Shown here: positions 6,879-59,610 of the stretch, piece by piece
Numbering within the stretch: the first letter of the stretch is position 1
Layout of the letters: each line of letters starts with the position of its first letter
NCBI GenBank assembly: GCA_010671905.1
Contig: JAAHII010000001.1
Location: 5,022,001 to 5,086,000 of the forward strand
Origin: Leptolyngbya sp. SIOISBB
GTDB lineage: Bacteria; Cyanobacteriota; Cyanobacteriia; Phormidesmidales; Phormidesmidaceae
DNA length: 64,000 nucleotides
Direction of reading: 5' to 3'
Position numbers and translations under genes: made by a program
The notes under the pieces: generated by a model
The model's database searches: none
Seen by the model: only the letters and a program-made list of their open reading frames with translations
What the model was told of the DNA's origin: nothing

Positions 6879-7936
6879 ATGAGTAAAGTCTTTTGCGAGT
6901 TGCTTAAAAAAGTCGGCAGCGGTCAGCATACCTCCGAAGTGCTGACCCGCAGTGAAGCGTCGCAAGCCGCCCAACTGATGTTGTCAGGAGAGGCTACTCC
7001 AGCGCAGATTGGGGCCTTTATGATTGCCCACCGCATCAAGCGCCCCAAACCCGTAGAACTGGCGGGCTTTTTAGATGCCTATGCGAAACTGGGGCCAACT
7101 TTACACCCGATTGCTGCCGATTATCCAGCCCTGGTATTTGGCTTGCCCTATGACGGACGCTCCCGCACAGCCCCCGCACAGCCTTTAGTCGCGCTGATGT
7201 TAGCAGCATGTGGTTGCCCTGTCGTGCTGCATGGGGGTAATCGCATGCCGACCAAATATGGTTTGCCCCTGGTGGATATCTGGCAGGCGATCGGACTGGA
7301 CTGGACTGGTCTACCCCTGGCGGCGATTCAAGGCATCTTGGAACAGACAAAGCTCGGCTACTTACACTTACCCGATCACTTTCCCAAAGCTCAAAGTCTA
7401 GTGCCCTACCGTGAACAAATTGGCAAGCGGCCCCCTCAAGCCACTTTAGAGTTAATGTGGTGTCCGTATGCTGGCGACTGCCAGGTCATCGTTGGCTATG
7501 TACACCCCTCCCTACCGAAGGTTTGGCTCAAGGCACCTTAGCCGCGATTGGGGTTCCTGACTTCACCACAGTCAAAGGATTAGAAGGGAGTCCAGATCTC
7601 CCCCGAGCTCGGGCTGCCATCGTCGGCGTCCATACCCCCAACGGGGAAGAACGTTTGGTGCTCCATGCGCGTGACTACGGTTTAGGCGATCAGAGCGAAA
7701 CTCCATTAGAGTCAGAGTCGACTTATCTAGAAACTCTGCAGAATACACTGGCGGGCAAGCCTACGCATCTCCAAACCATCGCTCTTTGGAATGGTGGCTT
7801 TTATCTTTGGCGCAGTGGCGTCGCCAATAGTTTAGTGGACGGTATCGATAAAGCTCGTAATTTGCTTGACAGCGATCGCCTCACTCAATACATCATTGTT
7901 ATTCAGCAAGCGATCGCTCTTTACCGTGAAAAATAG
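6879..7936 (+). pseudogene. TrpD2/YbiB-like anthranilate phosphoribosyltransferase-family protein, frameshifted as sequenced
   Basis: Two overlapping frames together make one protein of about 350 residues. The first (from 6879) gives the helical N-domain (SEASQAAQLMLSGEATPAQIGAFMIAHRIK) and the phosphoribosyltransferase core through CQVIVGYVHP at about 7505. The second continues PTEGLAQGTLAAIGVPDF to the stop at 7936. Dropping the two bases TC near 7509, or adding one base, restores GYVHPPTEGL, so a single indel explains it. The GTGGD and KHGN motifs of true TrpD are replaced (GLPYDGRSRT, LHGGNRMP), as in TrpD2/YbiB proteins that bind nucleic acid rather than make tryptophan. The break could be a real mutation or a sequencing error. 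The 3' end overlaps the convergent phosphoesterase by 38 bp. Confidence 0.78.
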
Positions 7937-8804
7937 ATCCCATCGCTCCGGCATCCTGACACTCCGCAACCTGACGCACTAGCCGGATGACCGTCACCTC
8001 TGGTGGGCAAAACAACCGTCCCGGAAAGTAACTGGCAAGTCCTCGATTGACATAAAGTTGATTGGGGCCAACTTGATGGAGTCCAGAGGCCCACTGCCAA
8101 TTTCGGAACACAAGATCGCAATCTTGTTTCAAAAAAGGGATCCAACGCCTTGCCCAGGTTGGAACCCCCGAGCCCCAGGCCTGTAAAATTCCTGGTAAAG
8201 CTCCCCGTCCAGGAATTGCTACCTGACCACCGTGGGTATGCCCTGACAAGACTAAATCCGCTCGGGACTGTTGCAGGATAACGAAACTATCAGGATTGTG
8301 AGACAGAACTAGACGAGGTATATGTTCATCAAGTCGCCCCAAGACTGACTCTGGTTGGAAGGCCCGCGAATAATAATCCGCCAAGCCGACTACAGGAAAA
8401 TCAGCTCCGAAGGGATAAGCGATTTCATTCCATAAAGTTTGAATCCCAACCGATTGCAGACCGGCTCTTACTACAGTCTGCATATTGGGATATCGATTAT
8501 CGTGATTGCCCAATATGGCATAGATTCCATTGCGACTTTTGAGGTCTTTGAGATAAGGCGACAATCGGTCAATATCTTTTGCCTGATCGGTAATGAAATC
8601 ACCCGTAAGGACTACCAAATCTGGATTGATTTCATTACATTGAGCGATCGCTGCTTCCAGGATGTTGGCTGACAGGCTACGACCATCAAAATGAAAGTCA
8701 GATAGCTGTACTACTGTTGCCCCCTGTAATCGCTTGGGTAGATCAGAGATCGTGATCGTGATGTGTTCTGTGGTTAGCGGCTCAATGAGAACGGGAGGTA
8801 GCAA
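7899..8804 (-). CDS. Metallophosphoesterase (YkuE-like calcineurin-fold)
   Basis: 301 residues. All metal-binding blocks of the calcineurin-like fold are present in order: SDFHFDG (DxH), LTGDFI, LGNHDNR, LSHNPD and SGHTHGGQ. This order and spacing fit the YkuE-type branch, which acts on phosphoesters and possibly lipid or UDP-linked substrates at the membrane. No N-terminal membrane anchor is visible from the ATG at 8804, unlike many YkuE relatives. The last 38 bp overlap the 3' end of the convergent TrpD2-like gene. Confidence 0.88.
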   Translation of the reverse strand: MLPPVLIEPLTTEHITITISDLPKRLQGATVVQLSDFHFDGRSLSANILEAAIAQCNEINPDLVVLTGDFITDQAKDIDRLSPYLKDLKSRNGIYAILGNHDNRYPNMQTVVRAGLQSVGIQTLWNEIAYPFGADFPVVGLADYYSRAFQPESVLGRLDEHIPRLVLSHNPDSFVILQQSRADLVLSGHTHGGQVAIPGRGALPGILQAWGSGVPTWARRWIPFLKQDCDLVFRNWQWASGLHQVGPNQLYVNRGLASYFPGRLFCPPEVTVIRLVRQVAECQDAGAMGSIFHGKERSLAE

Positions 8805-9051
8805 GGGACATTTTCTGGATGACTATATTATTGATCTTAACTATTCTCTCAGCCCGATGGGCAGCTACTCTGCGCTTGAACTACAAAAACCGGGTATACT
8901 TCTGCGCGGATGCATCGTATCAAGGTTGTTTTAGAGTCTTAAGAATTTAACTTATACAGTCTCTTCGTCTTTTGCACGTATCCAAAGACTTTTGATCGAG
9001 TATGATCGATGGGTTAATTTATTCAGACCTGCCACGGACGCTGTGCCCGAC

Positions 9052-9660
9052 ATGACTGATTTTCCTCAGCCTCCGCAAACACCGGACAATCCCGCTAGTA
9101 AAAATACCGAACACAAAACTAACCCCGTAGTCGAAGGGATTCAAACCCTGGGTCTTAGCATTGTATTAGCCCTTGGCATTCGTGCCTTTGTCGCTGAGGC
9201 GCGCTATATTCCATCAGGTTCGATGGAGCCAACCTTAGAAATTAATGATCGCTTAGTCATTGAGAAAATCAGCTATCATCTCAATCCCCCTCAACGGGGC
9301 GATATTATCGTTTTTTGGCCTCCCGAAAGCATATATGAAAAAGAAGAAGAAGAGCCACGCAAAGATGCCTTTATTAAGCGTGTGATTGGTGTCCCTGGTG
9401 ATACGGTCGAAGTGCGTGACGGTACCGTATTGATTGATGGAGTTCCTCTTGAAGAGGACTACATTAAAGCTGAACCCAACTACACGTGGGGACCTGAAAC
9501 TGTCCCACCTGAAGCCTATTTGGTTTTAGGCGATAATCGTAATAGCAGTTACGATAGTCATGCTTGGCCTTCGCCTGATTTCTTCGTACCCGAAGACAAC
9601 ATCATCGGTAAAGCTGTGGTGCGTTTCTGGCCGCCTAGCCGCCTCGGTGGTCTGAATTAG
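9052..9660 (+). CDS. lepB: Signal peptidase I
   Basis: Membrane serine protease that removes signal peptides from exported and thylakoid-lumen proteins. 202 residues from ATG 9052 (MTDFPQPPQTPDN). The frame extends back to a TTG at 8992, but ATG 9052 gives the usual short polar N-terminus before a single transmembrane helix (IQTLGLSIVLALGIRAFVA). The catalytic Ser is in IPSGSMEPTL (about residue 57) and the general-base Lys in FIKRVIGVPGD (about residue 109). The GDNRNSSYDSH box follows. The KEEEEEP-rich insert before the Lys box is acidic and somewhat unusual. Confidence 0.94.
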   Translation: MTDFPQPPQTPDNPASKNTEHKTNPVVEGIQTLGLSIVLALGIRAFVAEARYIPSGSMEPTLEINDRLVIEKISYHLNPPQRGDIIVFWPPESIYEKEEEEPRKDAFIKRVIGVPGDTVEVRDGTVLIDGVPLEEDYIKAEPNYTWGPETVPPEAYLVLGDNRNSSYDSHAWPSPDFFVPEDNIIGKAVVRFWPPSRLGGLN

Positions 9661-9729
9661 TTGTTTTGGTTGGATGCTAGCTTCCCCATACAAAGGCATT
9701 CGAAATAAGTTTGACAACGCGATTTGGGA

Positions 9730-9864
9730 TAATACAACGAGAGTTTTTCAAGGCAACTAAGTGAGGCATACTCCGATTTGGAGGACGACGACAGTGAGGG
9801 TATGACCTGGGTGTCTAAAACTGCAGAGTTGGTGAGTAATCTGCAGTTAGCTCAGGTCATTTTA
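9730..9864 (+). ncRNA. Candidate small structured RNA ending in a terminator-like hairpin
   Basis: No gene is encoded here on either strand. A TAATAC box at 9730-9735 could be a -10 element; the TTGACA at 9711 is only 13 bases away, too close for a standard -35. Downstream is a small stem CTCC/GGAG (about 9771-9783). Then comes a long nested hairpin: ATGACCTG (9802-9809) with CAGGTCAT (9853-9860), enclosing AACTGCAGA (9819-9827) with TCTGCAGTT (9840-9848). A T-run (9860-9863) follows. Together this could give an RNA of about 120 nt. It is not recognised as Yfr1, Yfr2 or 6S RNA by motif. Confidence 0.4.
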
Positions 9865-9870
9865 AATCGC

Positions 9871-9921
9871 TGAGATTGCTATTCAGTTGAGATTGCTATT
9901 CAGTTGAGATTGCTATTCAGT
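9871..9921 (+). repeat. Three perfect tandem copies of a 17-bp unit
   Basis: TGAGATTGCTATTCAGT is repeated exactly at 9871-9887, 9888-9904 and 9905-9921. Exact copies imply recent slippage or selection as clustered binding sites. It lies between the candidate small RNA and the rpoC2 terminator. Nothing else was found in 9922-10240. Confidence 0.9.
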
Positions 9922-10240
9922 AAGGATGCTAATTCTAATCGCTGACGCTGTCATAGTCATGCTTCAATTATCCTCATGCCCATTCAGGTCAAATTACCGT
10001 AGTTTTCGAACGCTGACTTGGCCTGATGTCAGTGATGAACAATACTGTGTTGCTCGGACTCAATCGTCATTCCGGTATTCAGTGTATCCCAGAATTAAGC
10101 AGTGCTCGAAAGCGATATTCTGTGCGGCAGATTGGACTGTTGTCATCCTCCGGTCATGCGGAAGTGCGTGCCTTGAGTTGATCTAGGCCGGACGTTCCTA
10201 TGGGAGCAGTGTGATTGTTGCCTGAGCGATCGCCTCGTAA

Positions 10241-10271
10241 ACAAAAACCAGCCCTCATCTGAGGACTGGTT
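10241..10271 (-). terminator. Intrinsic terminator of the rpoB-rpoC1-rpoC2 transcript
   Basis: On the minus strand the stem AACCAGTCCTCA / TGAGGGCTGGTT (12 pairs, one G-T wobble, 2-base loop as drawn) is followed by TTTTTGTTT. It lies about 30 bp after the rpoC2 stop codon. Confidence 0.88.
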
Positions 10272-10299
10272 GCATCACAATGAGCTGTCGCTCAATTCC

Positions 10300-13200
10300 T
10301 TAGATGATGTCGCTGTTATCATCGATCAGCAAATTATCATCGTCCAAGATGGGGTTTTGCGCAGGTGAAATATTGCCGGTTTTTTCACCAGTGCCGTCAC
10401 CATTATCAACAAAACCCACCATCTCATCATCTTTTAGGATTTTGCCCAAGCCACTATCGAGTTGGTAGTTGCGAGCAGTTGCATCATCTAGTACCACATC
10501 ACGAGCTAGGGCATCATCAATCATCGCTCCTTCGAATCCGGCATTCGGGTCAGTTTCCAGGCTGGGTGCCGGTTCTTCATAGGCATTAAAGCCAGTACCT
10601 GCCGGAATCAGACGACCGATAATCACGTTCTCTTTGAGTCCGCGCAGCCAGTCAGACTTACCTTCAATGGCTGCTTCTGTCAGCACCCGAGTTGTCTCTT
10701 GGAAGCTCGCTGCAGAGATGAAGCTATCGGTATTCAACGACGCCTTAGTAATCCCTAATAAGACGGGGGTGTATTCTGCTGGTGCCCCACCAGTGATCGC
10801 CATGGCTTCATTAACCTGCTCGATTTGATAAATCTCCATCAGTTCACCTGGCAGCATGGTGGTATCACCGCCATCCTCTACCCGGGCTTTGGAGGTCATC
10901 TGCCGCACAATGACTTCAATGTGCTTATCAGAAATATCTACCCCTTGTGACTGGTACACTGACTGAACTTCGTTCACCAAGAAGGTTTGCACTTCCTGCA
11001 AAGCTTTCATGGCGGCTGAGTGAATGCCTTCACCCTGGGACTTGTGATATCCAAAGAAAATTTCCAGAATCTGGTGGGGATTGGCTGGGCCGTCAGTTAA
11101 CGGTTCAGCCGCTTCCACATATTGACCATCATTGATCAATAGGTTTTGGCCCGGACTCAAGGGATATTCTGTCACCACTCCGTCAGCTTCAACGACCTTA
11201 ACGTTGGCTGTCTCATCGTCAGTGAAGACAACTTCTGCATTGCCTGGTCGTTCCACTAGGACACAGGCTTCTTTCGGTTTCCGAGCCTCCAAGAGTTCCT
11301 CAATTCGAGGTAGACCCTGAATAATATCACCGGTCTTAGCTCGCTCAAATACCAGGAGTACTAAACTATCACCCCGTTGTACTAGGTCACCATTCTCAAT
11401 ATGGAGGACGGCACCAGTCGATACCCGATAAGGCCGAGCAATCCGGAAGGTGAGTTGAGTATCCGTGATCTCAGTGATTTGACCAGACTCTTCTAGGGTA
11501 ATACCGGGTGCAACTTCGGTGCCGTCGACGATCAAATCACCCACGGCAACTGTCGGTTTCTGGCCATTTAATTCAAGCTGAACCAAATCATTAGCTCTCA
11601 CGACCAAAATTCGACGAATGGCCTCGGTACCTTCCCGAATTCCGCGCACTTCCCCTTCTTCTTTACATTGGATCTCGGTGCGGGCAACAACAGCTCCGGG
11701 TTCAATTTGCTGCCCCTCCTCCACCAAAATACGAGTCAAAGTGCTGCCTTGGGTCTGGTCAGCTACCACGTCTCGACGGATGATAATGGATTCCAAAATG
11801 ACCAGTTGCAGGCGCATCACATCGGGATCATTTTCGTCAGGCACCTGCTCGATGTCGGCTTCTAAGTGCGATGACTCTTCACCGATTTCTAGGACAAGTT
11901 GCGTTCGCAATAGTTCTTGGCCTTCTACTGACTTAACGCGATCGCCGTCCTTGAAAGAAATCCGCTGCACTGCGCGCAAGCGAATATGACAGCCCGAGTC
12001 ACTAGTGGAATCTTGGCTAGGCACAGAGGGCTCATCCGGCACGTTGAATTCTTCAACGGGACGCAGCAAAAGTGCTGGCCCTTCCGGAGATTCTACAAAT
12101 TCCACATAAGTTAGTTCGGATGTGGTGAGTCCAGCCATGAGTGTCTCACCGGGGGGCACGATCGTCCCGTCCCGATCCATTACTTCTTCGGGATTGTCCA
12201 CCATGTGCAGAGCACCAGGCTTAATCACGATCTCTCGCAGAATGTCATTTTTCTGGGTAACTTCAACGACCCCACTGCTTTGGCAGAAGATGTCTTTGAC
12301 GACTTCTGTACCGGCATCTACATATTGACCATCTTCTACGAGTAGCAAAGACAAGTCTTTGTTAACTTCATGGGTTTCTTCAGGAATCCACAAAAGCTGT
12401 CCGCCCTTCGTGACTTCGTAGCCCTGCTTACCTTTGCCTTTTTTGGCGGCTTCGACACCTGAGTATTTGATCATGCCGCCGGTACTGGTGCGGTAGGTGG
12501 TTTCTTCCATCTCCGCCACGACACCATTGTTGAGGAGCTTAGTCCCAGGGGTGGCGATCAGCGAAAATCGCTGACCGTTAGCGGTCTCGATAACATAGTG
12601 TTCACCCCCCTGACCACTCTCCATTTTGACTTCGGCTTGATCCAGTAAAACCGAGGCCGTAATCACCTCGACTTCACGAGCATCTTTTCCTTCTGGGATT
12701 TCTGGGAGGCGTACCAGTCCCCCCCGTTCGCTGACCTGACGAGTTTCAGCAATGACACTATCAGGCGTAATGCGATCGCCATTTTTAACGACAGGTTCAG
12801 CATTGGGTGGCAGATTATAGACTTCACCAGAAAGCACCCAAATCAAGCCACCACGCTGAGCTAAGCGAGTGGTATTGCCCTGCCGGTCAATTTTTTCTTC
12901 CTGCACTAGGCCAGCAAACTTGACTTCTCCAGAAAGATCGCTGTTAACGTCTTTCGTCGCTTTCTCAGTGACCTTGCGAACTCGACTGGAAGTCGGCATT
13001 TCCGCCAATAATTGGTCTTTAGTAACGCGACTGCCTTGATCTACGAACAAGATCGCCCCTTGAGGTAGCGTCTCTGACTGATTTTTGCCGGTGTCGCTCT
13101 GCACTACGAGCTTGGTTGAACTTTCCAAAACCAAGGCATCCTCACCATGGCGAGTCCGAAATGCACGGTTCTTAAACTTCGCGGGTAATTCGATGGTGCC

Positions 13201-16336: not shown

Positions 16337-19643
<3,307 letters not shown>

Positions 19644-20090
19644 GCGTCTCCTCAGGCGGAAAAACCCTACAGTTTCTACAAAAAAGCTCATCACAAGCAA
19701 CCCCATTCCCTTTGGTTGACATCAGGAATGTGGACAGCTACTGGACCTCAGCGTTGGCAATCCAGTGACAGGCTGAGTTGAATATTCTTGATGAAATCCA
19801 AAACACTAAGTCTCGATCCCATTTGGGTCGCTTTGACGAGCTGAACGATAACAGATGCGAATGATTTCTAGCGCTAAATCACTAGAAGATTGATGAGTAG
19901 TCAAATTTTAATAACGGCTTCAGACAGCAGCAATACATTACCCCAAGACCCTATCTGTCAGTTTGTCGTGCTTCGAACTAGCTTAGCAAAAAGAACGCAC
20001 TTTAAGTCATTTGTCAACACCCATTTTCCTGGAAAATATGCTAAGTCGCGGACTGAGATTGACCAAATAGTCTCTCAGAATCCGTCATGA
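19644..20090 (-). promoter_or_regulatory. Long leader/promoter region of rpoBC1C2
   Basis: 447 bp separate tatD from rpoB on the minus strand, much more than elsewhere in the block, so rpoB probably has its own promoter here. A short inverted repeat TTCTAG/CTAGAA lies near 19865-19886. Two translated frames in this stretch have no family resemblance. No specific promoter boxes can be claimed. Confidence 0.5.
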
Positions 20091-59181: not shown

Positions 59182-59569
59182 GGGGCCGTAACGGTTTCGA
59201 CGTTTTGACGAAAGTCATTTTGTGATTCAGACCGAGAGGGAGTCTACTCTCGTTAATCCAGGCTCAAAACAAACGTAACTGCGAACAACATCGTTCCTTT
59301 TGCTCGCAAAGCTGCACCTGTTGCTGCTTAAAAACTAACTCACGTTAGCGAGCGTCTGCGGTTTGACTCCGTTAAGGATCGCGGACCAACCCCCAACGGA
59401 TGCTCCTAAAGGGTTCCTCTGGTAACGCTTTAGGCTAAGACATCACTAGAGCATCCCACCGCTAGGGATAATTAGCGGTTCCCGCCTTGAGGGTTAGAAA
59501 GGCTATGTCTGTGAATGAATGGAATGTTACTACTCGAAGCGGACACGGGTTCGACTCCCGTCGGCTCCA
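59182..59569 (+). ncRNA. ssrA: Transfer-messenger RNA (tmRNA)
   Basis: 388 nt. Rescues stalled ribosomes by trans-translation with SmpB. The 5' acceptor strand GGGGCCG (59182-59188) pairs with CGGCTCC (59562-59568), discriminator A at 59569. The T-arm is CGGGTTCGACTCCCG. The resume codon GCG is at 59281, and the tag reads ANNIVPFARKAAPVAA with TAA at 59329-59331, a characteristic cyanobacterial tag. CCA is not encoded. One-piece form, not permuted. A perfect 11-bp hairpin follows at 59611-59637. Confidence 0.97.
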
Positions 59570-59610
59570 TTTGTATGAACTTTATTGTTCTTTGTTGAAC
59601 ATTTTTTATC

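Follow-up and report, generated by a model that had tools for sequence, protein, structure and literature searches.

A nested hairpin in the unusually long lepB–rpoC2 spacer of a Leptolyngbya genome, possibly a 3′ untranslated element of lepB

Introduction

Several trans-acting small RNAs (sRNAs) have been described in cyanobacteria, among them Yfr1, PsrR1, IsaR1, and Nc117, with listed lengths of 65 to 131 nt, and Yfr1, PsrR1, and IsaR1 are conserved in cyanobacteria (excerpt of PMC6202907). In other work, stretches that begin at a start mapped by experiment and end at a predicted terminator served as sRNA candidates, after which their conservation was asked about (excerpt of PMC4734099). A different class of structure, the intrinsic (Rho-independent) terminator or 3′-UTR stem-loop, lies on the sense strand past a stop codon and is followed by a short run of T.

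Here we analyze a hairpin in the spacer between lepB and rpoC2 of Leptolyngbya sp. SIOISBB, within a window (the whole stretch of DNA analyzed, 64,000 nucleotides, whose coordinates are used throughout). A first-pass annotation had proposed this spacer as the site of a candidate small RNA, either independent or part of a long lepB 3′ UTR. Like the cyanobacterial sRNAs of the PMC6202907 excerpt, the candidate is intergenic and falls within their range of lengths. Unlike the conserved Yfr1, PsrR1, and IsaR1, the hairpin is found in one genome only and has no Rfam match, and the locus is not among the sRNAs named in that excerpt. Set against the approach in the excerpt of PMC4734099, the hairpin has neither a called terminator nor an accepted homologue and is known from sequence alone. 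With intrinsic terminators and 3′-UTR stem-loops it shares a sense-strand position past a stop codon and a short T run, but it differs from intrinsic terminators in its two-part stem, its 6/1 internal loop, and its three free T, and it is not called as one. We found no paper on the lepB–rpoC2 locus in a literature search that was not aimed at proving absence.

Results

The host genome, 8.34 Mb in two contigs, carries lepB (signal peptidase I) on the plus strand at 9049–9660, where the Peptidase_S26 domain is recognized by Pfam PF10502 with an E-value of 5.7e-47; the start was picked by eye inside the ORF 8992–9660, and the stop codon ends at 9660. The rpoC2 ORF lies on the opposite strand with its stop at 10300. 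Both gene names are presumptive, assigned from the Pfam families. The convergent spacer between them spans 639 bp (9661–10299) and exceeds the length of its counterpart in three syntenic relatives. This stretch of 640 bp had been described as gene-free, and the longest listed ORF between the two stops encodes 86 aa. The description is uncertain, since the hairpin lies within a stop-free frame of 46 codons whose codon use is coding-like.

To place this spacer among its relatives, we compared five other genomes of the same genus and found lepB in all six. The adjacency of lepB and rpoC2 is seen only here and in G001, G002, and G003; the contig of G005 ends too soon after lepB to show its neighbor. 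The wider set of lepB neighborhoods comprises 59 loci, some of them non-cyanobacterial, of which 55 are distinct (four are on duplicated contigs); no further genome in it has this adjacency, although some contigs, such as L049 and L056, end soon after lepB (in these two within about 165 bp), where the neighbor is not visible. Measured to a common marker at the rpoC2 end, the gap is 643 bp here versus 228, 194, and 319 bp in the three relatives, and blastn aligns G001 with the window as far as 9659 and then from 10248 onward, with nothing between.

Each of these three relatives has one hairpin just before rpoC2 that is common to both genes; on the lepB side, the letters after it are TTTATT in G001 and TTTTTGATC in G002 and G003. 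Its counterpart here (10246–10271) is about 585 bp from lepB and is followed on that side by TTGCATC, without a T run, a contrast that is weak for G001, where the lepB-side run is hardly better. On the minus strand, the same 10246–10271 hairpin is the rpoC2 intrinsic terminator, one of two sites called in a terminator scan of 8700–10600 against 1.4 expected in shuffled sequence, and it matches the position of the hairpin in the three relatives. The structure studied here lies upstream of it and is separate, although gene pair and spacer are the same. We did not find it in the lepB–rpoC2 gaps of G001, G002, or G003, and since these gaps hold nothing like it, there is no sign of selection.

The nested hairpin occupies 9802–9860 on the lepB strand, beginning 142 nt past the lepB stop. 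Reading the letters confirms the arms as first reported, with perfect outer arms of 8 bp (ATGACCTG at 9802–9809 and CAGGTCAT at 9853–9860) and perfect inner arms of 9 bp (AACTGCAGA at 9819–9827 and TCTGCAGTT at 9840–9848). It is a genuine stem-loop in an unusually long gap. The TTTT noted after it is present at 9860–9863, but its first T already belongs to the 8-bp arm, as the final base, leaving TTT free. A smaller CTCC/GGAG stem of 4 bp with a 5-nt loop had also been proposed; its letters are present on the plus strand at 9771–9783 (arms 9771–9774 and 9780–9783), and it occurs in the minimum-energy fold of 9661–9900, but it is missing from those of 9730–9872 and 9739–9862. Directly 3′ of the hairpin, at 9871–9921 on the plus strand, are three perfect tandem copies of the 17-bp unit TGAGATTGCTATTCAGT, which was found nowhere else in the host genome with up to one mismatch allowed.

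The stability of the hairpin exceeds chance in part. The best-folding 60-mer of 9661–10240 starts at 9802, with −26.4 kcal/mol, and is equalled in 6 of 300 shuffled spacers; across the plus strand of the window 40 of 10,657 overlapping 60-mers, the hairpin's own counted, fold as well. In dinucleotide-shuffled sequence, exact 8-bp and 9-bp arms nested in this way are expected 0.03 times per 64-kb strand (60 shuffles), by a criterion chosen after the feature had been seen. Shuffling gives z = −3.18 for the fold of 9730–9872 (1 of 200 as good), and the fold of the 240 nt from 9661 to 9900 is not unusual (z = −0.89; 30 of 200). After correction for GC content, 567 of 6388 stretches of the window are at least as stable as the putative transcript 9739–9862; a more exceptional stretch is that of the 124 bases beginning at 9801 (residual z = −2.92).

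Evidence for a promoter is at chance level. The TAATAC cited as a −10-like element is present at 9730–9735 but does not end in T as a −10 would, and an extended −10, TGGGATAAT at 9725–9733, reads better. It is the only one on the plus strand of the spacer, and at least one such match occurs in 18.8% of 500 shuffled spacers. The distance of 11 nt between a TTGACA at 9711–9716 and GATAAT is too short for a −35, so that the promoter-like letters of 9711–9735, picked out by eye on the plus strand, are poorly spaced. No sigma-70 site was called on the plus strand of 8700–10600. Nor did the terminator scan of this region call the hairpin at 9802–9860, and by the rule of a GC-rich stem followed by a run of T, its strong stem comes with just three free T and falls short of an intrinsic terminator.

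Covariance scans against Rfam, with gathering thresholds and at a permissive E-value of 10, returned nothing on the hairpin, in agreement with the earlier remark that it does not match Yfr1, Yfr2, or 6S RNA. In the E-value scan of 9600–10340, four weak matches appeared, all below gathering, on the other strand, and within 9962–10330. Across the window, the sole Rfam match at gathering is a tmRNA at 59182–59572 (+). At the DNA level, 9690–9890 matched only itself among 59 genomes at an E-value of 0.001, the 58 others giving no match. The whole spacer is single copy in its own genome (other matches with E of at least 1.3), and its matches within the genus, in three genomes, are 22 to 24 bp long with E-values of 0.04 to 0.07. 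A mobile repeat of the MITE or REP type was rejected on the single copy of the hairpin in its own genome, and a plasmid or phage remnant on the lack of a match in plasmid or phage records.

A covariance model of little power, built from one sequence entered twice, found in 39 genomes the hairpin itself and one match, in G018 (L110 1501–1630, minus strand), with an E-value of 0.16 for that genome. In the model-fitted alignment 19 of the 27 pairs form, including all 9 inner ones, and 8 are broken; taken alone, this count speaks for a relative. When only 12 chosen loci were searched (61 kb in all, this locus included), the E-value was 0.0016. One match with a score like this is expected by chance when 39 genomes are searched. 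The match sits inside a 1043-codon open frame with Cadherin_3, Cadherin_4, and Big_9 domains. Its codon phase agrees with that of the 46-codon frame of the window, and the 43 residues that it encodes there gave no alignment with the 46-codon frame. On its E-value in one of 39 genomes searched and its place within a cadherin-repeat frame, we judged it to be a chance match. The first-pass annotation had named the lack of a transcript together with a lack of conserved stems as grounds for giving up the candidate, and the latter is what we find: no second copy that would reveal compensatory changes across the relatives' gaps was accepted in the genomes and gaps searched.

Two small reading frames on the plus strand overlap in this part of the spacer. 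The first, of 28 codons, runs from ATG to TAA at 9674–9760; it is weakly coding-like and may be the first part of a small protein, but its codon score is ambiguous, with 12% of coding stretches scoring as low and 11% of non-coding ones as high. The second is the 46-codon stop-free frame at 9733–9873 (codons 9733–9870, TGA at 9871–9873), which overlaps the hairpin. Its codon use is coding-like: among the true coding stretches in the window 36% score no higher, and 0.75% of the non-coding stretches without stops reach its score. The spacer has 12 stop-free stretches of at least 25 codons, of which this one scores best, and over all 12 the 0.75% becomes about 9%. The two frames overlap at TTTTT 9744–9748, a possible joining point.

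Homologues of these frames were sought as follows. The joined reading found none but the locus itself in 388 genomes at an E-value of 0.01, and the 46-codon part likewise only the locus itself in 77 genomes at an E-value of 0.1; neither the 46-codon part against plasmids nor the joined reading against phages gave a homologue. Pfam and NCBIfam returned nothing for the 28- and 46-codon parts, these two being the only searches made with the 28-codon frame alone, which entered the genome searches as part of the joined reading. For the joined reading, Pfam gave Syndetin_C at an E-value of 0.12, far below the cut-off and not credible, and it returned nothing for six further frames without stops in the spacer. 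By eye, there is no clear ribosome site before 9674.

Discussion

Our tentative reading, at rather less than even probability, is that the lepB mRNA carries the hairpin in its 3′ untranslated region, as a stem-loop specific to this lineage. As the gap lengthened, the hairpin at 9802–9860 may have become the point where lepB transcripts stop or down to which they are trimmed; it would serve to terminate transcription weakly or to keep exonucleases out at the 3′ end. That the gap is longer and a T run is missing follows from comparison with the relatives; in which direction the gap changed, and what the hairpin does, we infer. In favor of this reading are the fold strength, a position and orientation that fit lepB, the lack of a promoter of its own better than chance, and the common hairpin of the relatives, which has a lepB-side T run that its counterpart here is without. 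Against it are the three free T, the failure of the terminator scan to call the hairpin, the weak T-run contrast with G001, the absence of anything similar from the relatives' gaps, the equally strong 60-mers elsewhere in the window, and the ordinary fold of the 240 nt. There is no need of a separate regulatory RNA to explain the hairpin, and a long lepB 3′ UTR remains more economical than an independent sRNA.

Nearly as likely, though still improbable taken by itself, is that the spacer is neutral, an expanded and unconstrained gap that holds a palindrome by chance, in which case the hairpin would be functionless. The absence of a copy from the relatives' gaps and, by DNA, from the other genomes searched, the single copy at home, and the private 17-bp tandem repeat that adjoins the hairpin all fit this explanation, as do the promoter letters at chance level and the shuffled spacers that contain an equally strong 60-mer; the rarity of the nested arms, by their post hoc criterion, argues the other way. 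We consider it unlikely that the palindrome is incidental in coding DNA, with 9674–9760 and 9733–9870 forming one reading of about 66 codons, broken by an indel at the T run, that belongs to an intact or decayed small protein gene. The coding-like 46-codon frame and the overlap of the two frames at TTTTT point toward such a gene, and two other apparent frameshifts in the window, one of them in the presumed rpoB, suggest indels in the assembly. Weighing against it, the codon score loses much of its force once 12 stretches have been scored, the 28-codon frame is ambiguous, and the reading has no homologue in genomes, plasmids, or phages, no credible Pfam match, no NCBIfam match for its parts, and no clear ribosome site.

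More doubtful again is an independent sRNA of about 120 nt, reaching from the extended −10 at 9725–9733 to the hairpin and T run that end at 9863. The spacing of about 120 nt between TGGGATAAT and the hairpin with its short T run, the fold z of −3.18, and the pairs formed by the G018 match in its model-fitted alignment would suit it. Yet the independent RNA of the first-pass annotation is not supported: the promoter is not above chance, a −10 of this kind being common in shuffled spacers, the 124-nt stretch is unexceptional in stability, there is no Rfam family, DNA homologue among the 59 genomes, or copy in the syntenic gaps, and the G018 match lies inside a cadherin-like frame. Very improbable is a single transcript with two roles, as a structured RNA and as the mRNA for an orphan small protein (9674–9870), its frames joined across T5, species-specific and born in the expanded lepB–rpoC2 gap. 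If a stable transcript existed, it would represent a young RNA or small gene that emerged between convergent genes, beside a polymerase gene. Without a second genome, a large gap that contains a good-looking hairpin and a −10-like word is weak evidence for an sRNA, and the significance of this one is at present little.

The reading frames of the window can also be compared with those of G001, of which 24 ORFs were matched, four of them split into two or more pieces. Among these four, two are collinear frame breaks. One lies in the minus-strand region 16355–19685, which matches a 1125-aa G001 ORF that we take, from its position, to be RNA polymerase beta (rpoB); the break, near 17031–17080, consists of one extra base relative to G001 and is probably an assembly error. 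As RNA polymerase beta is essential, a broken frame there suggests that the assembly contains indel errors, and these suspected indels call for caution on base-exact features of the spacer. The other is a gene with Glycos_trans_3N and Glycos_transf_3 domains at 6879–7936 (+), present as two frames split near 7508, whose G001 homologue is intact at 351 aa. The remaining two split G001 ORFs are antisense to known genes and match at low identity.
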